From: Haloplanus sp. GDY1
Lineage (GTDB): Archaea; Halobacteriota; Halobacteria; Halobacteriales; Haloferacaceae
Assembly (NCBI RefSeq): GCF_023703775.1
Contig: NZ_CP098514.1
Location: forward strand, 1,488,001 to 1,552,000
Reading direction: 5' to 3'
DNA: 64,000 nt
Positions within the stretch are counted from its first letter, which is position 1. Every line of letters starts with the position of its first letter. Of the stretch, positions 4,335-50,423 are shown in pieces. The notes below the pieces were generated by a model, which saw only the letters and a program-made list of their open reading frames with translations, did not search any database and was not told where the DNA came from. Both the position numbers and the translations under genes were made by a program.

Positions 4335-5537
4335 GTGGCGGGAGCCGTGTTCTGGGCGCTCGTCGCCCTGGCGACGCTCACCAGTTTCGTCACGGCGTGG
4401 ACCCTCGGCGCCAACAGCAACTCGCCGCCGTTCGCGCCCGCCATCGGTGCCAACGCCATCTCCACGATGCGGGCGGCCTTCCTCATCGGCATCCTCGCCG
4501 CGTTGGGGGCGCTGACACAGGGCGGCGCCATCTCCGAGACGGTCGGGGCCGGCCTCGTCGACGGCGTCCGGATCACGTCGCTGGCGGCGACGGCCGGCCT
4601 GCTGACCGCCACCGGGTTCATGGCCGTCGGCGTCTACACCGGCTACCCCATCCCGGCGGCGTTCGCAACCACCGGCGCGATGGTCGGCGTCGGCCTCTCG
4701 CTCGGCGGTGATCCCGCCGTCGACACGTACCGCCGGATCGTGACCTTCTGGGCGCTGGTTCCGCCCGTCTCCGGCGGCCTGGCCTACCTCACGGCGACGC
4801 TCCTCCGTCGCGACGACATCCCCGAAACGGTCGGCGTCCCGCTCCTGGCGGCCCTCGTCGGCGGCATCGTCGCGAACGTCCAGTTGTCGGTCGTCCCCTC
4901 GCCGCCCGGCGTCGGCGGGAGTTCGATTTCGGGGTTCGTCGCCCGAGGGCTCCCCGCCCCGACCGTCGGCGGCGTCGACCCCGTGGTCGTCGCCGTGACC
5001 CTCGCCGCCGCCGCGGCGAGCTTCCAGTTCATCCGTCGGCGCACGCAGCGATCCGTCGACGACGGCGTCCGTACGTTCCTCGTCGTCCTCGGGAGCGTCG
5101 TCGCCTTCTCCAGCGGCGGGAGCCAGGTCGGGTTGGCGACCGGGCCGCTCGAGAACCTCTTCACGGCCGAACTCGGACTCCCGGGCATCGCCCTCCTCTT
5201 TCTCGGTGCGACGGGCATCCTCGCCGGCGCGTGGATGGGCGCGCCCAGACTCCTGCAGGCCACCTCCCGTGAGTACGCTCAACTGGGAATCAGACGCTCC
5301 ATCGCCGCGCTGGTCCCCGGCTTCGTCATCGCCCAACTCGCCATCGCCCTCGGCATCCCCATCTCGTTCAACAACATCATCATCTCGGGGGTCATCGGCG
5401 GCGGCCTCGCCGCCGGCTCGGCGGGCGTCTCGCGGAAGAAAATCGCCGTGACCGTCGCCTTCTGGCTCGTCACGCTCGTCACCTCCGTGCTGGTCGGCTT
5501 CGGCCTCTACCGCGCCTTCGCCGCCGTCCTCGGCTAG
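4335..5537 (+). CDS. pit: Inorganic phosphate transporter, PiT family
   Basis: 400 residues, about ten membrane segments. The N-terminal repeat has GANSNSPPFAPAIGANAISTMRAAF, the duplicated PiT signature region with Asn/Asp-poor glycine-rich loops; the C-terminal counterpart is IPISFNNIIISGVIGGG. PiT proteins move phosphate with a cation (H+ or Na+) across the cytoplasmic membrane. A central insert (about 170-230) is shorter than in bacterial PitA, as usual in archaea. The start is GTG at 4335, since no other start is in frame upstream. Its stop overlaps the stop of the convergent UspA gene in a shared CTAG at 5534-5537. A PhoU/AbrB regulator lies 28 kb away at 32859-33890. Confidence 0.9.
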   Translation: MAGAVFWALVALATLTSFVTAWTLGANSNSPPFAPAIGANAISTMRAAFLIGILAALGALTQGGAISETVGAGLVDGVRITSLAATAGLLTATGFMAVGVYTGYPIPAAFATTGAMVGVGLSLGGDPAVDTYRRIVTFWALVPPVSGGLAYLTATLLRRDDIPETVGVPLLAALVGGIVANVQLSVVPSPPGVGGSSISGFVARGLPAPTVGGVDPVVVAVTLAAAAASFQFIRRRTQRSVDDGVRTFLVVLGSVVAFSSGGSQVGLATGPLENLFTAELGLPGIALLFLGATGILAGAWMGAPRLLQATSREYAQLGIRRSIAALVPGFVIAQLAIALGIPISFNNIIISGVIGGGLAAGSAGVSRKKIAVTVAFWLVTLVTSVLVGFGLYRAFAAVLG

Positions 5538-5965
5538 CGAACGACGGTCACCGTCACCGGTGCCTCCCCGACCACCGCCGTCGCCACCGTCCCGAGCAGA
5601 CGCCGGGCGACGGCGTTTCGCTCCCCCCCGTGTCCCCCCATGACGATTCGGTCGACGCCCGTCTCGGCGACGTACTCGAGGATGGTCTCCGCGGGGTCGC
5701 CCGTCCGGACGACGGTGTCGACCGTCCGGTCGGCGTCCGCGGCCCGGTCACGCGCCCGTTCGACGAGCCGTTCGGCTCGGTCGCGTGCGTCGTCGCGTCG
5801 CTCCTCGTCGGCGCCGAGAATCCCGCCCTCGCTCATCCCCCGGTCGAGTGGCGTCGCCACGTTCAGGACCGTCACACGGCAGTCGAAGAGTGAGAGGGCC
5901 TCCGCAAGCGCCTCGTCGGCGAGCGGTGAGCCGTCGAGCGGGACGAGGACGTGTGAGGGGGGCAT
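5534..5965 (-). CDS. Universal stress protein, UspA family
   Basis: 143 residues from ATG at 5965 (MPPSHVLVPLDGSPLADEAL). A longer frame to 5989 adds unrelated residues. The fold is a single Usp domain: VLVPLDGS strand at the start, then ILEYVAETGVDRIVMGGHG and RLLGTVATAVVGEAPVTVTVV near the end. The nucleotide-binding loop G-2x-G-9x-G(S/T) appears as GGHGGERNAVARRLLG, so ATP binding is possible but the final S/T is replaced. Usp proteins are small cytoplasmic stress or transporter-associated modulators. It converges on the phosphate permease with a 4-base overlap. Confidence 0.9.
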   Translation of the reverse strand: MPPSHVLVPLDGSPLADEALAEALSLFDCRVTVLNVATPLDRGMSEGGILGADEERRDDARDRAERLVERARDRAADADRTVDTVVRTGDPAETILEYVAETGVDRIVMGGHGGERNAVARRLLGTVATAVVGEAPVTVTVVR

Positions 5966-6114
5966 GGGGTGGGCTTGGACGCGCGGCAAAATAGCTCCGG
6001 TGGTCGGCCGGGAGCGGCGTCCGTACGCGCCCGGCGTGCGTCGCCGCTCCCGTTAGGTCCGCGCGACGTGATTCGGAGTGGGTTCGCGACTGGAGTGGCC
6101 CGACACCGGAGAAG

Positions 6115-6187
6115 TAGTCCCGGGCGGATTCGAACCGCCGTCCTGGGCTCCAAAGGCCCAGATGATTGGCCACTACACCACGGGACT
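6115..6187 (-). tRNA. tRNA-Gln (anticodon UUG)
   Basis: 73 bases on the minus strand. Acceptor arms AGTCCCG / CGGGACT pair fully, with discriminator A at 6115. The anticodon stem is TGGGC/GCCCA with loop CTTTGGA, giving anticodon UUG. The T arm carries GGTTCGAATCC. CCA is not encoded. No intron is visible. Archaea charge this tRNA with glutamate and amidate it with GatDE. Confidence 0.97.
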
Positions 6188-6237
6188 ACACGTCGCTGTT
6201 CGGCGGCCGCCCCGTATAAATCCAGCCGTTCGCGTCG

Positions 6238-6672
6238 TCAGTCAGCCGGGTTCTCGCACTCCACGTCGAGTTCGGCGCAGGCGTCGGCGTCGGCGTCGAA
6301 GCAGTCCGGGCAGTTCGGGTTGCGGTTGATGATGGTGTCGAGGCGCTCGGCCACGGTGTCGTCGATGACGGCTTCGAGTTCGCGGGCCTCGGCACGGAAG
6401 TCCTCCACGTCGAGGACGTTCGCGAGGAACCGCTCGATGATGCAGTACGTCTGAATCGCGTCGCGGGCGCGGGTGATCCCCTCGTCGGTGAGGCGGACCC
6501 CCTTGTACTTCTCGTGTTCCGCGAGGCCACGGGTTTCGAGCTTGCCGATCATCTCGTTCGCGCTCGCGGGGCTCACGTCGAGCATGTCCGCGAGCGCGCC
6601 CGTCGCCGCCGGGCCGTCCTCCATCTCCTGGATCAGGTAGATCGCCTTGAGATACTGGTCTGCCGTGTTCAT
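6238..6672 (-). CDS. DtxR/MntR-fold transcription regulator with atypical metal site
   Basis: 144 residues. The N-terminal winged helix (about 5-65, MNTADQYLKAIYLIQEME..ATGALADMLDVSPASANEMIGKLETRGLAEHEKYKGVRLT) matches the DtxR/MntR/SirR family of metal-dependent repressors. The dimer/metal domain follows (66-115). In DtxR and MntR the main site includes an E-H pair in helix 5; here the equivalent stretch reads RELEAVIDDTVAERL, with Ala in place of His. The C-terminal tail instead has four cysteines (121, 124, 132, 139). The gene follows the ferritin-like gene by two bases (TAG CG ATG), so the pair is one operon and iron or redox control is likely. Which ligand it senses is unknown. Confidence 0.88.
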   Translation of the reverse strand: MNTADQYLKAIYLIQEMEDGPAATGALADMLDVSPASANEMIGKLETRGLAEHEKYKGVRLTDEGITRARDAIQTYCIIERFLANVLDVEDFRAEARELEAVIDDTVAERLDTIINRNPNCPDCFDADADACAELDVECENPAD

Positions 6673-6674
6673 CG

Positions 6675-7169
6675 CTAATCCCGTTTCTCCATGATCTTCG
6701 TCACCTCTTCGACGCCGTCGGCCTCGTCCTCGCGGATCGACCGCAGAACTTCGAGCAGGCGCTCCCGATCCACCGAGAACCGAGCGTCGCTGGCCTCGAT
6801 CGCCGACACGAGGTCGTCGTAGAACTTGTACGCCGTCTCCTCGTTACAGAGCTGATCGTAGAGGACGCCGTCGAAGTCGTCGGGTTTGGTCTGTGCGTAC
6901 TGCGCCTCGACGAGCGCCTCGATGTCCTCGAAGGGGATGGACTCCGCGTCGAGGTCGGCGACCAGTTCGTCCAGTCGCTCGCGGTGGGCCGCCGACTCCT
7001 CGGCGGCGTCGGCGAGGAGTTCCTCGACTTCGGGATCGAGGCTCCGGTCGACGTCGAGCGACTGGTAGTGGTGGTGGGCTCGTGCCTCGACCACCTCCTC
7101 GAGGACGATACCGATCTGGAGGAGGCGGGCTAACTGGTGGTCGGAGCCGACCCGGTGGCTGACGCTCAT
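6675..7169 (-). CDS. Ferritin-like helical-bundle protein paired with the DtxR-type regulator
   Basis: 164 residues from ATG 7169 (MSVSHRVGSDHQLARLL); a longer frame from GTG 7184 is less likely because a Shine-Dalgarno-like GGAGGTG (about 7183-7189 on this strand) fits the ATG better. The protein is predicted helical with Glu/His-rich helices: LEEVVEARAHHHYQ (23-36), AAEESAAHRERL (55-66) and NEETAYKFYDDL (109-120), arranged as in rubrerythrin-like or ferritin-like bundles. The exact E-x-x-H spacing of classical ferritins is not seen, so metal binding is inferred. The tight operon with a DtxR-fold regulator suggests iron storage, sensing or peroxide defence. Confidence 0.65.
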   Translation of the reverse strand: MSVSHRVGSDHQLARLLQIGIVLEEVVEARAHHHYQSLDVDRSLDPEVEELLADAAEESAAHRERLDELVADLDAESIPFEDIEALVEAQYAQTKPDDFDGVLYDQLCNEETAYKFYDDLVSAIEASDARFSVDRERLLEVLRSIREDEADGVEEVTKIMEKRD

Positions 7170-7232
7170 CGGAACGACTGCCACCTCCGTTCGACTGTGA
7201 CCGGGACGGGCATACGATGCAATCGGGGAGAG

Positions 7233-7251
7233 GGGAACTTAAGGTGTTCCC
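7233..7251 (-). promoter_or_regulatory. Inverted repeat over the ferritin-like/DtxR operon promoter
   Basis: GGGAAC (7233-7238) and GTTCCC (7246-7251) form a perfect 6-7-6 inverted repeat around an AT-rich core that reads ACCTTAA on the minus strand. The core looks like the TATA box of the operon starting at 7169. A regulator bound here would block transcription, so it is a candidate operator, possibly for the DtxR-type protein encoded in the operon. Confidence 0.45.
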
Positions 7252-7260
7252 TGCGGCCGC

Positions 7261-8472
7261 CTACTCGCGGAGCCGGGCCGCGACCTGCGACTCCAGGTCC
7301 TCGCGGAGTTCGTCGACCTCGATCTCCTCGAGGACGGGCACGAAGAAGCCCTCCACGAGGGTGTTCCGGGCGTCACGTTCCGGAATCGACCGCGACGTGA
7401 GGTAGAACAGGTCCTCCTGATCGACCTGGCCGACCGTCGCGGAGTGAGAGGCCTCGGTGTCGTGGTTGTTGATGATGAGCTTCGGCGAGGCGTCGGCCTC
7501 GCTGTCGTCGCTCAGCATGAGCGTGTTCTCGCGCTGGTAGGAACTGGTGTCCCACGCCTCGCGGCCCACGTCCTGCACGCCCTCGTACACCGAGCGGGCG
7601 GTGTCGTCGAGGACGCCGCGGGTGACGAGGTCGGCCGTCGTGTGCTCGGCCTGGTGCCAGACCCGCGCGTTCACGTCGAAGTGCTGGTCGTCGTGGCCGA
7701 AGAAGGCCCCGACGATCTTGGTCTCGGAGCCGTCGCCGTTGAGTTCCGTCTCGATGTCCGAGCGGGTGAGCCGGGAGCCGATGTTCCCCTCGATCCAGTC
7801 GATGGTCGAGTACACGTCCGCGTCGCCGCGCTTGAGCGTGACGTTGTACGTGTCCTCGTCGAGGGTCTGGAGCGAGCCGTACTGGACGTAACTGTTCTCG
7901 CCGGCGTCGACTTCGACGAGGTTGCTGTAGTAGCGGTCGCCCTCGACGTCGTCGCCGGAGTCGATCCGTTCGAGGATCGTCACCGACGAGGAGTCCTCGG
8001 TGACGACGAGCGTCTGGCTGAACAGCGACCGGGAGTTCATCTCCGTCCGGATCGTCACGTCCTCGGCGTCGACGCCCTCGGGGACGTAGATGAACGTCCC
8101 GGTCGTGAACAGCGCGACCGACAGCGCCGTCAGGTAGTTGGTGTCCGGCTCGATCACGGAGCCGAACTTGGCCTCGAGGAGGCTCGGATGCTCCGCCATC
8201 GCCTCGGCGAAGGAGAGCACCTCGACGCCCTCGTCGGTGACGCGGTCGGTGTCGTCGGCCTGGTTCAGCGGATCGGCCAGCTCGCTGAAGTCGAGCTGGT
8301 CGAGGTTCGTCCACCGCCGGCCTGGCGTCTGGATGACGTCGGGCATCTCCAGATCGTCCATGGCCTTGAGCGCCTTCAGCCGCGTCTCGCGGAGCCAGTC
8401 GGGCTCGTCGCGGCGGTCGGCGATCTCGTGGACGGTCGCTTCCGAGAGGTCTGCTGGTACCTGCGTGCTCAT
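7261..8472 (-). CDS. sufD: Fe-S cluster assembly scaffold protein SufD
   Basis: 403 residues. SufBD-type beta-helix protein; the C-terminal half carries the family core (VWHQAEHTTADLVTRGVLDD, LIINNHDTEASHSATVGQVDQEDLFYLTSRS, ending before LVEGFF). It forms the SufBC2D complex that assembles iron-sulfur clusters on a scaffold. The final core block has H in NHDTEASHSATVG, the conserved His region near the SufB-SufD interface. It is the last gene of the leftward sufCBD set; sufB ends two bases upstream of its ATG (TAA, two bases, ATG), so they are probably co-translated. The acidic N-terminal part (1-110) is haloarchaeal in character. Confidence 0.96.
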   Translation of the reverse strand: MSTQVPADLSEATVHEIADRRDEPDWLRETRLKALKAMDDLEMPDVIQTPGRRWTNLDQLDFSELADPLNQADDTDRVTDEGVEVLSFAEAMAEHPSLLEAKFGSVIEPDTNYLTALSVALFTTGTFIYVPEGVDAEDVTIRTEMNSRSLFSQTLVVTEDSSSVTILERIDSGDDVEGDRYYSNLVEVDAGENSYVQYGSLQTLDEDTYNVTLKRGDADVYSTIDWIEGNIGSRLTRSDIETELNGDGSETKIVGAFFGHDDQHFDVNARVWHQAEHTTADLVTRGVLDDTARSVYEGVQDVGREAWDTSSYQRENTLMLSDDSEADASPKLIINNHDTEASHSATVGQVDQEDLFYLTSRSIPERDARNTLVEGFFVPVLEEIEVDELREDLESQVAARLRE

Positions 8473-8474
8473 GG

Positions 8475-9905
8475 TTATCCGAGACTCCCCTCCATCTCGA
8501 GTTCGACGAGACGGTTGAGTTCGACCGCGTATTCGATGGGCAGTTCCTCCGTGATCGGCTCGATGAAGCCCGAGACGATCATCTGCTTGGCGTCGTCGTC
8601 GTCGAGGCCGCGGCTCTGGAGGTAGAAGACGTCCTCGTCGCCGATCTTGCCGACCGTCGCCTCGTGGGCCACGTCCACCGTCGACTCGTTGATCTCCATG
8701 TACGGCATGGTGTCGCTGGTGGACTCGTTGTCGAACATCAGCGCGTCACACTCGACGCTCGTCGAGGAGTTGGCCGCGCCGTCCGCGATGTGGACCAGGC
8801 CGCGGTAGTTGGTGCGGCCGCCGTCCTTGCTGATCGACTTGGACTCGATGGTCGATTTCGTGTTCGGCGCGTTGTGGTACACCTTCGCGCCGGTGTCGAT
8901 GTTCTGCCCCTCGCCCGCGAAGGCGATGGTGATGTGGTTGTCGGAGGCGCCACGGCCCTTGAGGACCGAGGAGGGGTACAGCATCGTCGCCTTCGACCCC
9001 ATCGACCCCGAAATCCACTCCATCCGGCCGTCCTCCTCGACGAGCGCCCGCTTGGTGTTCAGGTTGTAGGTGTTTTTCGACCAGTTCTGCACGGTCGAGT
9101 ACTGGACGTGGGCGTCCTCGCCGACGAACACCTCGACGCCGCCGGAGTGGAGGTTGAACGCCGAGTATTTGGGCGCGGAACAGCCCTCGATGTAGTGGAC
9201 CTCGGAGTTCTCCTCGGCGATGATGAGCGTGTGCTCGAACTGGCCCATCCCCTCGGAGTTCATCCGGAAGTACGCCTGCACCGGCATCTCGACGGTGGTG
9301 TCCTCGGGGACGTAGACGAACGAGCCCCCGGACCACACGGCGCCGTGCAGCGCTGCGAACTTGTTGTCGCTCGGGGGGACACACTTCGTCATGAAGTGTT
9401 CGCGGACCAGGTCCTCGTGTTCCTGGACGGCCTCGTCCATGTTGCAGAAGACGACGCCCTTCTCCTCCCAGCGCTCCTGCATGTTCTGGTAGACGACCTC
9501 GGACTCGTACTGGGCGCCGACGCCCGAGAGCGCGTTCTTCTCGGCCTCCGGGATACCCAGTTTGTCGAAGGTGTCCTTGATGTCGTCGGGCAGGTCCGTC
9601 CAGTCGTCGACGCTCTCGCGGGTCTCGACGTCGGGGCGGATGTACGGGACGATTTCGTCGACGTCGACCTCGGAGAGGTCGGGCTGGCCCGGCCAGTCGG
9701 TCGGCATCGGCATCTCCTGGAACTGCTCCAGGGCCCGGAGCCGCCGCTTCAGCATCCACTCGGGCTCGTCCTTGTCCTCCGAGATGACGCGGATCGTCTC
9801 CTCGGTCAGGCCCTTGTCGGCCTGGAACGAGGACCGCTCCTCTTTCTTGAACTCGAAGCGGGCTTCGGTGTCCGTCTCTTTGAGATGATCTTGATCGGAG
9901 CTCAT
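8475..9905 (-). CDS. sufB: Fe-S cluster assembly scaffold protein SufB
   Basis: 476 residues from ATG 9905 (MSSDQDHLKETDTEARFEF). The open frame extends to 10589 but that part is a shadow of sufC. Typical SufB blocks: FVYVPEDTTVEMPVQAYFRMN, HYIEGCSAPKY (Cys of the SufB core), FAGEGQNIDTGAKVYHNAPNT, and MPYMEINESTVDVAHEATVGKI near the C-terminus. SufB receives sulfur and builds the nascent cluster within SufBC2D in the cytoplasm. It lies between sufC (26 bases upstream) and sufD (two bases downstream). Confidence 0.97.
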   Translation of the reverse strand: MSSDQDHLKETDTEARFEFKKEERSSFQADKGLTEETIRVISEDKDEPEWMLKRRLRALEQFQEMPMPTDWPGQPDLSEVDVDEIVPYIRPDVETRESVDDWTDLPDDIKDTFDKLGIPEAEKNALSGVGAQYESEVVYQNMQERWEEKGVVFCNMDEAVQEHEDLVREHFMTKCVPPSDNKFAALHGAVWSGGSFVYVPEDTTVEMPVQAYFRMNSEGMGQFEHTLIIAEENSEVHYIEGCSAPKYSAFNLHSGGVEVFVGEDAHVQYSTVQNWSKNTYNLNTKRALVEEDGRMEWISGSMGSKATMLYPSSVLKGRGASDNHITIAFAGEGQNIDTGAKVYHNAPNTKSTIESKSISKDGGRTNYRGLVHIADGAANSSTSVECDALMFDNESTSDTMPYMEINESTVDVAHEATVGKIGDEDVFYLQSRGLDDDDAKQMIVSGFIEPITEELPIEYAVELNRLVELEMEGSLG

Positions 9906-46765: not shown

Positions 46766-47794
46766 ATGACCGACCAGGACCCGGACTTCACGGCCGACGC
46801 GGCCGTCGAGCACTGCCGGCGCCACGGGGTCGTCCCGCCCGACGCGGACGCGACCGTGCGCTCGCTCGGCGGCGGCGTCTCGAATCACGTCTACCAGGTG
46901 ACCTGGGACGACGACTGTGTCGTCGTGAAGCGCCCGCTCCCGAACCTCGCCGTCGAGGACGACTGGCCCGCGGACGTCGACCGCGTCCACAACGAGGCGG
47001 CGGCCATCCGCACCTACGAGTCGGTGCTGGCCGACTCGGGCGTCCGGGCCCGCGTCCCGGGCGTCGTGAGCGAGACGGACGACCACGTCGTCGCCATCGA
47101 GTGCGCGCCCGCGGACGCGACGATGTGGAAGGCGGAACTGCTCGACGGCCGGGTCGACGCCGGCGTCGCGACGGCCGTCGGCGACGTCCTCGGCGCCGTC
47201 CACGCGGCGACGGCCGACGACCCCGAGGTGCGCGAGACGTTCGCGGAGAAACGGCCCTTCGACCAGTTGCGCGTCGACCCCTACCACCGCGCCACGGCAC
47301 GGCGGAACCCCGACGTCGCCGACGCCATCCGCGAGGAGATCGACCGGGTGCTGGGGACCGAGCGCACCCTCGTCCACGGCGACTACAGCCCGAAGAACGT
47401 CCTCGTCGACCGCTCCGGGGCGACCACCCCCTGGATCCTCGACTTCGAGGTGGCCCACTGGGGTGACCCCGCCTTCGACACCGCGTTCATGCTCAACCAC
47501 CTCTACATCAAGTCCGTCTACAACCACGGGAACCACGCCGCCTACGCCGACGCCGCCGACCGGTTCTGGAACGCCTACGACGCCGCGGTCGACTGGGACA
47601 TCGAACGCGAGACGGTCCGGGAACTCGCCGTGTTGATGCTGGCCCGCGTCGACGGCAAGTCGCCCGTCGAGTACGTCGAGCGCGAGGCGGTGGCCGACGC
47701 CCTCCGCCGGGTGGCAAAGCGGACGCTCCGCGGCGACGCCGGGCGCCTCGACGGGTTCGCGGCGCTGGCCCGCGAGGAGGCGCTGGCCCTATGA
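46766..47794 (+). CDS. APH-fold small-molecule kinase paired with an enolase paralogue
   Basis: 342 residues. Aminoglycoside phosphotransferase/choline kinase fold: N-terminal loop SLGGGVSNHVYQVTW, ATP Lys in CVVVKRPLP (about 52-60), HNEAAAIRTYE, catalytic loop LVHGDYSPKNVLVD (about 202-215, Asp205 as base and Asn210) and metal-binding WILDFEVAHWGDPAFDTAFMLNHL (from about 224). The overall pattern resembles methylthioribose kinase-like proteins. It likely phosphorylates a small hydroxyl compound. Its stop overlaps the ATG of the enolase paralogue (ATGA), so both proteins are made together and probably act in succession. Confidence 0.88.
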   Translation: MTDQDPDFTADAAVEHCRRHGVVPPDADATVRSLGGGVSNHVYQVTWDDDCVVVKRPLPNLAVEDDWPADVDRVHNEAAAIRTYESVLADSGVRARVPGVVSETDDHVVAIECAPADATMWKAELLDGRVDAGVATAVGDVLGAVHAATADDPEVRETFAEKRPFDQLRVDPYHRATARRNPDVADAIREEIDRVLGTERTLVHGDYSPKNVLVDRSGATTPWILDFEVAHWGDPAFDTAFMLNHLYIKSVYNHGNHAAYADAADRFWNAYDAAVDWDIERETVRELAVLMLARVDGKSPVEYVEREAVADALRRVAKRTLRGDAGRLDGFAALAREEALAL

Positions 47795-49065
47795 CCGACA
47801 TCGAGGGCGTCGACGCGTGGGAGGTACTGGACTCGCGGGGCGAGCCCACGGTTCGCGTCCGGGTCGAGACGGCCGACGGCGCGGGCACCTTCACCGTCCC
47901 GGCGGGGGCGAGTACGGGCGCCCACGAGGCCGTCGAGCGCCGCGACGGCGGCGACCGCTACGGCGGCCGCGGGGTGCGCGACGCCGTCGCGGCGGTCCGC
48001 GACGAACTCGCCCCCGTGGTCGTCGGGCGCCCTGCGACCGACCAGCGCGGGATCGACGAGGCCCTCGTCGACCGCGACGGCACCGAGAGCCTCTCCCGAC
48101 TCGGCGCCAACGCCGTCCTCGGCGTCTCGGGCGCCGTCGCGCGCGCCGCGGCCGCGGCGACCGACCGCCCGCTGTACGAGGCGCTGGCGCCCGACGCCGG
48201 CCCCGGATCCCTCCCGCTGCCCATGGTCAACGTCCTGAGTGGCGGCCTCCACGCGGCGGCCGACCTGCCGATCCAGGATTTCCTCGCCGTGCCCGTGGGA
48301 GCGGACACCTACCCCGAGGCGCTGGAGACGGCGTGGGCGGTGCGCCGGGCGGCCGGCCGGCGGATCGGCGACGGCGACCACCCGCCCCCGGTCGCAGACG
48401 AGGGCGGGTTCGTCCCCCCCGTCGCCGACGCGGACGCCGCCTTCGACCTCCTGGTCGACGCCGTCCGTGACGCCGGCCACGACCCGGGGTCGGACGTCGC
48501 CATCGCCGTCGACGTGGCGGCGACGCACTTCTACGATCCGGATCGGGAGCGGTACGCGCTCCCCGGCGAGGCGCTGTCCCGCGAGGCGATGATCGACCGC
48601 GTGGCGGGCTGGATCGACGACCACCCCGTGCGCTCGGTCGAGGACCCGCTCGCCGAGGACGACTGGCGCGGCTGGGAGCGACTGGCCGACCGCGTCGGCG
48701 ACCGGGTGCAGTTGCTCGGCGACGACCTGCTGGCGACGAACGCCGCCCGCCTCGACCGGGCGGTCGACGCCGGCGCCGCCAACGCCGCGCTGATCAAGCC
48801 GAACCAGGCGGGGACGATCACCCGGACGCGGCGGGTCCTCGAGCGCGCGGTGGACGCGGGCTGGGCGCCCGTCGTCTCCGCGCGCTCCGGCGAGACCTGC
48901 GATTCGACCATCGCTGACCTCGCCGTCGCGCTGGACGCCGGGCAGATCAAGATCGGATCGCTCGCCCGGTCGGAGCGTCTCGCCAAGTACAACCGACTGC
49001 TCGAGATCGACCGGCGACACGGCGGCGGCTTCGCGGGAGCGGCGGCACTGTCCCCCCGGCTCTGA
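47791..49065 (+). CDS. Enolase paralogue with altered catalytic residues
   Basis: 424 residues, full enolase length. N-terminal loop VPAGASTGAHEAVERRDGG; His154 (GGLHAAAD); metal ligands Asp241 (AVDVAATHF), Glu284 (SVEDPLAEDDW) and Asp311 (LLGDDLLATN); acid Glu204 (ADEGGF); base Lys336 (LIKPNQAG); Lys387 (GQIKIGSLARSERLAK). Two differences from glycolytic enolase: QEF is QDF (Asp163 for the Glu at yeast 168) and SHRSGE is SARSGE (Ala364 for the His at yeast 373). The metal site and the Lys/Glu pair remain, so enolisation chemistry on another substrate is likely. It is co-translated with the kinase. Canonical haloarchaeal enolase is usually encoded in a ribosomal protein cluster. Confidence 0.9.
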   Translation: MTDIEGVDAWEVLDSRGEPTVRVRVETADGAGTFTVPAGASTGAHEAVERRDGGDRYGGRGVRDAVAAVRDELAPVVVGRPATDQRGIDEALVDRDGTESLSRLGANAVLGVSGAVARAAAAATDRPLYEALAPDAGPGSLPLPMVNVLSGGLHAAADLPIQDFLAVPVGADTYPEALETAWAVRRAAGRRIGDGDHPPPVADEGGFVPPVADADAAFDLLVDAVRDAGHDPGSDVAIAVDVAATHFYDPDRERYALPGEALSREAMIDRVAGWIDDHPVRSVEDPLAEDDWRGWERLADRVGDRVQLLGDDLLATNAARLDRAVDAGAANAALIKPNQAGTITRTRRVLERAVDAGWAPVVSARSGETCDSTIADLAVALDAGQIKIGSLARSERLAKYNRLLEIDRRHGGGFAGAAALSPRL

Positions 49066-49231
49066 CCCCTCGGACGGGGTCCGCGTGCGCCGCGGGCCGA
49101 CACCCCCCGAGGTCCCGCGCGAACGGTCGAGGCACCCCGTCGCCGAACCGCGACGCACCGTCCGGCCATCCCCCAGCGCCGCGCCCCCGGTACACCGCGA
49201 GGCGGTGTACGCCCACGGCTTCCGGACGGGG

Positions 49232-49274
49232 ATAGTTGGATATTTTGCCGTTACTCACGATACTATCGTTACTT
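49232..49274 (+). promoter_or_regulatory. AT-rich promoter with palindrome upstream of the CARF-like regulator
   Basis: A perfect inverted repeat ACGATA-C-TATCGT occupies 49258-49270. A second pair GATAGT/ACTATC (49232-49237, 49263-49268) overlaps it, and CGTTACT occurs twice (49250-49256, 49268-49274). The AT-rich ATATTTTG at about 49241-49248 may be the TATA box. The ATG is at 49306. The remainder of the 240-base gap after the enolase paralogue (49066-49231) shows nothing recognisable. Confidence 0.5.
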
Positions 49275-49305
49275 AGAACTCGACGCGTGTCGTCGGGATC
49301 GGTGA

Positions 49306-50076
49306 ATGAACGTCGCAGAACGCGTCCACGTGATGCCGCTCGGGTTCGAACACGACCGGATCGTCGAACCGGCAGTCGAGTACCGGGCCGACCGGGTGAT
49401 CCTGCTCGACTGGATCGCCGACGACATCGAGCGCCCGGCGTACCACGAGGACGTACTCGCCGATCTCGACTCGGCGGGCATCGACGTCGAGCGCCGGGAG
49501 TGTGCGCTGTTCGACCTCTACGACTCCATCGCGGTCGTCGCGGAGATCGCGACCGACGAGGCGACCCCCGACGGCGAGGACGACGTCGCCAACGAGGTGT
49601 ACGTCAACCTCGCGACGGGGAGCAAGATCACCGCCATCGGCGGCATGATCGCGTGCATGGTGACCGGGGCCGCCCATCCCTACTACGTCCGCGCCGAGCG
49701 CTACGCCTCGGGGACCGAACCGGTGGGGTACGGGATGGAACTCGCCATCGATCTCCCGACGTATCCCATGGACCGCCCCGACCGCCAGCAGATCGCGGTA
49801 CTGGACCGACTCGTCGAGGAGGGAGCCTGCTCGAAGAAGGCGCTGATCCGCTTCGGCGCCGACCGCGACCTCCCGTTCATCCGGGACTGCGACCGACCGT
49901 TCGACGGGTCGGGAAAACCGACGAAACAGGCGTACGCGCGACTCCGACGGCACGTCGTCGACCCGCTCCGGGAGCGGGAGTTCGTGACCGTCGAGGCCGC
50001 CGGGACGACCCGGCGGGTGCGGGCGACGGAGGCCGGACGGAACGCCCGCCGGGCGTTCGGCTACGTCCTCGATTAG
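49306..50076 (+). CDS. CARF-like N-terminal domain fused to winged helix (HFX_2341/DUF6293-like regulator)
   Basis: 256 residues. The N-terminal half (1-150) is a Rossmann-like domain: VHVMPLGFEHDRIVEPAVEYRADRVILLDW, VIAVVAEIATDEA-like helices, and EVYVNLATGSKITAIGGMIACMVTG, which occupies the place of the ligand loop N-x-T-x-G-T-K in CARF domains of Csa3-type CRISPR regulators. The C-terminal half (about 165-256, QQIAVLDRLVEEGACSKKALIRFG..RLRRHVVDPLREREFVTVEAAGTTRRVRATEAGRNARRAFGY) is a winged helix. I believe this is the family named after HFX_2341 (DUF6293). No CRISPR or cas gene is in the window, so it may sense another nucleotide ligand. Confidence 0.85.
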   Translation: MNVAERVHVMPLGFEHDRIVEPAVEYRADRVILLDWIADDIERPAYHEDVLADLDSAGIDVERRECALFDLYDSIAVVAEIATDEATPDGEDDVANEVYVNLATGSKITAIGGMIACMVTGAAHPYYVRAERYASGTEPVGYGMELAIDLPTYPMDRPDRQQIAVLDRLVEEGACSKKALIRFGADRDLPFIRDCDRPFDGSGKPTKQAYARLRRHVVDPLREREFVTVEAAGTTRRVRATEAGRNARRAFGYVLD

Positions 50077-50423
50077 TCCAGCCGCTCGACGACCCGTCGA
50101 AGCCGGTCGTCGTCGCCGAAGGCCTCGACCAGCGTCGTCGTCTCGTGTGCGAGTTCGTACGCGGGTCGCCCCTTGCCGACGGGCGACCGCTCGCCGTCGT
50201 CCGCCGTCCGGACGTGCTCCGCGGCGTCGAGTTCGTTGAGTGCGCGGGTCACGTCGGCCTCGGAGACGGAGCCAACCACGTCCTCGACGTCGGTGGCTTC
50301 CTCGGCACAGACGCGGGCGATTTCGCCGGCGTGGGCCGGCGTCTCTCCCGCGTCCGACAGGCGTGCGATGCCGAGCAGGGTGAGTCGCTGGACGAGCGTC
50401 GTCGAGTCGAGCCGGTCGGACAT
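50073..50423 (-). CDS. Winged-helix protein convergent to the CARF-like regulator
   Basis: 116 residues from ATG 50423 (MSDRLDSTTLVQRLTLLG). Winged helix: LVQRLTLLGIARLSDAGETPAHAGEIARVCAEEATDVEDVVGSVSEADVTRALNELDAAEHVRTADDG then VGKGRPAYELAH as the wing. Likely DNA-binding. It converges on the CARF-like gene with a 4-base stop overlap. Function unknown; conserved haloarchaeal family likely. Confidence 0.8.
   Translation of the reverse strand: MSDRLDSTTLVQRLTLLGIARLSDAGETPAHAGEIARVCAEEATDVEDVVGSVSEADVTRALNELDAAEHVRTADDGERSPVGKGRPAYELAHETTTLVEAFGDDDRLRRVVERLD

Follow-up and report, generated by a model that had tools for sequence, protein, structure and literature searches.

The window, by which we mean the whole 64-kb stretch of DNA analyzed here, carries on its forward strand a gene (49306..50076) for a protein of 256 amino acids with two recognizable domains. 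The sensor domain, residues 6-133 (49321..49704), matches PF19810 (HFX_2341_N; E 1.3e-38, 132.6 bits compared to a gathering score of 30), and the winged-helix DNA-binding domain, residues 149-251 (49750..50058), matches PF22665 (DUF6293_C; E 1.8e-26, 93 bits compared to 27). The best PADLOC model, CARF3 (PDLC01847), from which the label CARF3 is taken, covers residues 1-254 with an E-value of 3.6e-85 and 283 bits, PADLOC giving no curated cut-off. In contrast, the NCBIfam models reached scores well below their cut-offs, both for the HFX_2341 equivalog NF051475 (19.3 bits, cut-off 500) and for Csa3 TIGR01884 (19.0 bits, cut-off 60.2). With strong Pfam and PADLOC matches and weak NCBIfam scores, the protein is thus a member of the family, but neither Crr (HFX_2341) nor Csa3. 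It combines a CARF sensor with a winged helix and belongs, as a transcription regulator, to the DUF6293 / HFX_2341-like (CARF3) family. Family matches at E <= 0.001 were found in 132 of the 148 genomes of the family sample, a figure that includes orthologues of Crr. Upstream of the gene, an APH-type kinase gene overlaps an enolase gene by 4 bases (46766-49065). Downstream, a small gene of 116 aa on the reverse strand (50073..50423) converges on the CARF gene and overlaps its stop by 4 bases; its product shows a weak Cdc6-type winged-helix match below the cut-off.

A sequence search of the PDB with the single protein or with the query set A2 gave no significant match, and a search with the profile A3 yielded at best 8bao (E 0.016). 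An AlphaFold model that drew on the window protein together with 45 relatives reached a mean pLDDT of 94.4 and a pTM of 0.87. CARF proteins were the matches listed by Foldseek and made up nearly all of the best 50 VIA-align rows. Can2 (7bdv) superposed with Z 14.7 over 122 residues (rmsd 2.5), and the ring nuclease Sis0811 (7pq3) with Z 13.5 over 191 residues (rmsd 5.7). Csa3 matched as well (2wte, Z 11.0 over 194 residues; 6w11, Z 10.7), however the rmsd of 13.8 for 2wte implies that the two domains sit differently in Csa3 and in the window protein. The C-terminal part (157-256) resembled BpsR (6pco; Z 10.6, 76 residues, rmsd 1.9). Hence, the CARF-like N-terminal domain fused to a winged helix, which a sequence-only reading of this DNA had proposed together with a comparison of the predicted structure to CARF domains, is borne out by Pfam, PADLOC and the fold.

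Two conserved motifs mark the putative ligand site. Motif 1, P11-L-G-F-E-H-D-R18 (49336..49359, forward strand), was matched by reading to Csa3 motif 1; in an alignment of 46 sequences P11, G13, [FY]14, E15 and R18 were each present in all 46. Motif 2, N101-L-A-T-G-S-K107 (49606..49626, forward strand), is slightly more variable, with N101 in 46, G105 in 43 and K107 in 37 of the 46 sequences. It opens the loop NLATGSKITAIGG (residues 101-113), which had been singled out from the sequence and indeed lies in this reading frame. In the HMMER profile comparison, VNxxxGSK aligned to VNISGGTK of 8bao (E 0.016) and to VNITGGTK of Card1 (E 0.25), both weak matches. Csa3 is described as binding cA4 through h-G-F-(N/D) and L-x2-G-h-R, and the exchange G96A or R98A abolishes binding, according to the available passages of PMC8844856 and PMC8699464. 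The window protein shares h-G-[FY] of motif 1 and L-x2-G-x-[R/K] of motif 2 with Csa3, a correspondence drawn from those passages and not from a residue-level structural alignment. A ligand site resembling that of cyclic-oligoadenylate receptors is therefore plausible, as judged from these motifs.

The second, distant family match in the window's own genome (3.44 Mb, 4 contigs) is an orthologue of Crr, the published Haloferax regulator HFX_2341, which acts mostly as a repressor according to the accessible part of PMC11434293. To Crr itself the window protein is a distant paralogue. Fifteen such loci were sampled, of which 13 were readable (L069, L164-L166, L168 and L170-L177); at L167 the gene is a different kind of paralogue, and L169 lacks a readable N-terminus. 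All 13 keep motif 1 as VPVGFDYDR, whereas N[VI]S[SA]MPRP, with MPRP invariant, replaces motif 2 (NLATGSK). This replacement suggests that Crr binds a different ligand or none. Because Crr lacks motif 2, the clade of the window protein seems the better candidate for accommodating a ligand of the Csa3 type. A 9-bp array of the kind described below was not seen by eye in the promoters of the readable Crr orthologues.

Between a TATA-like box, ATATTTT (49240..49246, assigned by eye and unscored), and the start codon lies an array of direct repeats, CGTTAC-TCA-CGATAC-TAT-CGTTAC-TTA (49249..49275, forward strand), which we propose as an autoregulatory operator on the basis of its conservation. Three CGTTAC-like hexamers, at 49249, 49258 and 49267, stand in a 9-bp register, with a consensus of CGTTAC-N3 repeated three times. 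The array begins 2 bp past ATATTTT, and 33 bp lie between the end of its last hexamer and the start codon. It is present in all seven orthologues of the genus, with three hexamers in six genomes and four in G090. The sequence-only reading had emphasized a palindromic promoter, ACGATA-C-TATCGT (ACGATACTATCGT), and two copies of CGTTACT. Both are there: the palindrome lies inside the array (49257..49269) and owes its existence to the middle unit, which in this genome reads CGATAC, and the two CGTTACT copies (49249 and 49267) are the only ones in the 64 kb. As an operator, however, the palindrome was rejected for its lack of conservation, since it is perfect in just one of the seven orthologues, that of the own genome. 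Although it occurs at a single place in the window, and still at one place when up to 2 mismatches are allowed (2 matches, counting both strands), shuffled sequences gave a mean of 0.60 and reached 2 in 12 of 100 cases; likewise, two CGTTACT are at chance level (shuffle mean 2.13). Each count is insignificant alone, while the array that contains them is significant. A bacterial promoter and terminator scan, which is not designed for archaea, found nothing.

A perfect inverted repeat, GTACACCGC-GAG-GCGGTGTAC (49190..49210), lies further upstream and offers a rival site for the regulator. The protein might bind here as a symmetric dimer and, in the manner of Csa3, activate transcription from a position upstream of the TATA box, while another factor binds the array. 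A palindrome suits a dimer, and the 8-base arms are exact in five of the seven gene-bearing genus loci, while the gene-less loci (L155-L159) all lack exact arms. Moreover, the Csa3a palindrome of Saccharolobus is placed upstream of BRE/TATA in the available passages of PMC8699464. The same consideration would speak against the array as operator, as direct repeats should be a poorer match for a symmetric dimer than an inverted repeat, and the Csa3a operator in print is palindromic. On the other hand, in L005 and L006 the inverted repeat is absent or degenerate, and its exact arms were found in none of the other loci compared, other genera included, whereas the 9-bp array is present in seven of seven genus loci and recurs across genera. 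We regard binding to the inverted repeat as unlikely.

The case for the array as operator of its own gene gains from genome-wide scans. In the own genome, the three-unit pattern occurred at one place with up to 2 mismatches, and at five with up to 3, compared to two for the reversed pattern. Across the 12 genomes of the genus, with up to 1 mismatch, the sole match outside the promoters of the CARF gene was a coding repeat in G062, and the reversed-pattern control gave none; the G074 array was reached only at 2 mismatches. Exact two-unit copies elsewhere were confined to G062, where one such CGTTAC-N3-CGTTAC sits about 42 bp ahead of the start of a further family member with about 30% identity (L070 10237-10251). 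Cross-regulation of this distant DUF6293 paralogue is possible. A sequence model was then built from 12 arrays, excluding the G062 paralogue array, and run against the 12 genomes at E <= 1, with 150 candidates scored per genome, so that weak sites may be missed. It returned 11 matches, namely eight in seven own promoters, one in the promoter of the G062 paralogue and two on plasmids; in the own genome this array was the sole match among the 150 of 268 candidates that were scored. Two of 14 further loci matched the model, both at family-gene promoters (L070 and L078, the latter a Haloarcula orthologue). The plasmid sites (G046:C4 and G111:C3, model E 0.12 to 0.13; L178 3248 and L179 3367) lie in homologous stretches, where a GTAACAGTGGTAGTAACGTTAG repeat is found downstream of a 160-aa ORF. 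Four other candidates were set aside, three inside predicted frames (G024:C7:24889, G062:2029917 and G046:485666) and one because it seemed, by eye, to belong to a short frame rich in cysteine (G062:852995). Thus, the array is found essentially only in promoters of the window gene's family, an independent paralogue included.

The 9-bp period extends beyond the genus. In 79 non-redundant family promoters (of 109), the mean z of self-similarity at period 9 was 1.22 +/- 0.19, and at the other periods from 5 to 15 it lay between -0.19 and 0.20. When promoters were split into close and distant by similarity to the window protein, a division drawn after the promoters had been seen, the closest relatives reached 2.41 +/- 0.19 (n = 31, kept of 47), close relatives outside the genus 2.09 +/- 0.20 (n = 24, kept of 40) and distant members only 0.46 +/- 0.22 (n = 48, kept of 62). 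Of the first 30 loci, six with about 40-44% identity (L024, L025 and L027-L030) were assigned to the distant group. L008 was left out because a contig end cuts its upstream side, and the same genome enters as L075. Some close members were weak (L084 0.4, L085 0.9, L019 1.2). The unit itself drifts while the period stays, reading CGTTAC in the window's genus, Halohasta and Haloarcula and CGTCAC or CGACAC in Halorubrum; a quick FastTree tree places the first three in one set with a support of 98. In Halohasta salina, a second CGTTAC array in the opposite orientation was observed at the 3' end of the CARF gene (L042 7025-7048, on the same contig as L075), and the gene that follows it encodes 105 aa with no family above the cut-off.

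An association of this kind leaves the binder unnamed, and the array could be the site of a different regulator of the CARF gene, or an activator site. Control promoters of neighboring genes carry a weaker period-9 signal as well (0.80 +/- 0.13; n = 71, kept of 118). These controls were also raised at periods 6, 12 and 15 (0.29, 0.52 and 0.38), which makes their signal look like codon periodicity from called starts inside coding sequence; the close family promoters do not follow this pattern (0.37, -0.06 and -0.12). A general regulator would have further sites, but the model found only this one among the candidates scored in the own genome, and the promoter of the G062 paralogue carries the CGTTAC unit too. 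We regard both readings as quite improbable.

Taken together, we consider it probable, from sequence comparison, that the CARF3 regulator limits its own synthesis through the CGTTAC array, that an adenylate-type ligand modulates its expression and that its regulon is small. Dimers would bind with their winged helices placed next to one another along the CGTTAC units. Archaeal transcription starts about 25 bp downstream of the TATA box, and the array, beginning directly behind the TATA-like box, should consequently reach the transcription start. Bound dimers would then cover the region between the two. A protein bound there should block initiation, and from this we infer negative autoregulation, which fits the mostly repressive action of Crr in the accessible part of PMC11434293. 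A small adenylate-type nucleotide held across the CARF dimer may alter the fit of the winged helices to the array and hence expression. The regulon might consist of the own gene only, plus the family paralogue or an adjacent gene in some genomes. In the open-access literature, we found no report of a 9-bp direct-repeat operator for the DUF6293/HFX_2341 family, PMC11434293 being the only paper to treat DUF6293 or HFX_2341, and neither a ligand nor a mapped operator has been reported there for haloarchaeal non-CRISPR CARF transcription factors. The protein is a real CARF-type regulator of an ordinary family, and it is the type of its candidate operator that is of interest.

What such a receptor might sense depends on the signal sources at hand. 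Cas1 had no match in the own genome and matched in two of the 12 genus genomes, and the Cas10 palm2 model matched none of the 12 genus or 148 family genomes, with matching controls, although other Cas10 forms may escape this model. PF09651 was uninformative as a CRISPR probe, as it matched nowhere, controls included. The absence of cas genes, noted from the sequence for the window, thus stands in the own genome for Cas1 and Cas10 palm2, the sole families covered, and these searches revealed no genomic link to CRISPR-Cas of the kind known for Csa3. A co-occurrence with cyclic-oligoadenylate synthases, also raised by the sequence-only reading, did not emerge, given the Cas10 palm2 result and a plasmid-borne CBASS cyclase in only one of seven gene-bearing genus members, the own genome. 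SMODS cyclases were detected in two of the 12 genus genomes; one is the own genome, the other G106, where the locus is without the gene. The CBASS operon of the own genome lies on a contig of 164 kb and encodes an oligonucleotide cyclase, an E1-E2/JAB fusion and a TIR-SAVED effector (L180, G000:C3:74001-84500, at 4740-9453). DAC, the c-di-AMP synthase family, is present in all 12 genus genomes and is the sole signal source found in every one; being universal, its co-occurrence proves nothing. Tentatively, the window protein may belong to a CRISPR-independent haloarchaeal branch in which the CARF receptor senses a non-CRISPR cyclic adenylate (c-di-AMP from DAC, or a CBASS product) and acts, unlike Csa3, as a transcription factor on a cooperative 9-bp-phased direct-repeat operator of its own gene.

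Alternatively, the protein could mainly remove or buffer a cyclic oligonucleotide like the Crn1-type ring nucleases, with DNA binding only setting its own level. The best full-length structural matches are indeed Sis0811 and SSO1393 (Z 12 to 13.5, 191-196 residues), with Csa3 a superposition of both domains leaves an rmsd near 14, and no further chromosomal target sites were found among the candidates scored in the own genome. However, Crn1 enzymes use a catalytic Ser and Lys of the CARF pocket, and motif 1, as read from the sequence, is PLGFE and contains no Ser; moreover, the palm2 search found no Cas10 signal source in the family genomes. An enzymatic main role is very doubtful.

Compared to autoregulation through the array, control of the adjacent genes finds least favor. 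The kinase/enolase pair adjoins the gene here and is intact beside it in three other genus members (G062, G074 and G083, with G000 four of seven). G046 has only a fragmented enolase there and no kinase, and in G090 and G101 neither was found within the 20 kb examined; conversely, three of the five gene-less genomes (G096, G106 and G111) hold the pair at the locus. The convergent gene is present in six of seven genus members with the CARF gene and in all five without it. Adjacency and position, as noted from the sequence, are therefore real, but neither neighbor is coupled to the gene, and both were rejected as partners. The CARF gene is therefore an accessory gene that occupies a fixed site regardless of either neighbor. 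Outside the genus, no conserved neighbor was accepted either: among 32 loci no cluster apart from the gene itself occurred in more than eight, and most of the recurrent ones reflect gene order shared within one genus. That the protein regulates the kinase/enolase pair or is coupled to the convergent winged-helix gene is thus extremely improbable, all the more as the array belongs to the promoter of the CARF gene itself and the pair lies upstream of it.

PhoB- and MetJ-type regulators pack on short-period direct repeats, with periods of 11 and 8 bp, much as we propose for the 9-bp array, although these proteins are unrelated to the window protein. The Crn1-type ring nucleases SSO1393 and Sis0811 align with both domains, but are CRISPR-associated enzymes, while the window gene is not so associated by the Cas1 and Cas10 palm2 searches. 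MM_0565 of Methanosarcina mazei is also an archaeal CARF-winged-helix (wHTH) regulator; unlike the window gene, it is encoded at a type I-B CRISPR locus, according to the accessible part of its description. Csa3 (TIGR01884; Saccharolobus Sso1445, PDB 2wte, 6w11, 6wxq) likewise combines CARF with a MarR-like winged helix, and differs in its CRISPR link, its domain orientation and, in the available passages, its palindromic operator. Crr of Haloferax mediterranei (NF051475) belongs to the same Pfam N-terminal family, pairs a CARF-like sensor with a C-terminal DNA-binding domain and is likewise haloarchaeal without a genomic link to CRISPR; the two proteins are about 30% identical over the N-terminal part, and both genes occur in the own genome. 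Unlike Crr, the only haloarchaeal relative studied, the clade of the window protein joins a compact, conserved candidate operator to a pocket keeping both Csa3 motifs, so that the signals and binding sites of CRISPR-less CARF regulators become open to direct experiment there.
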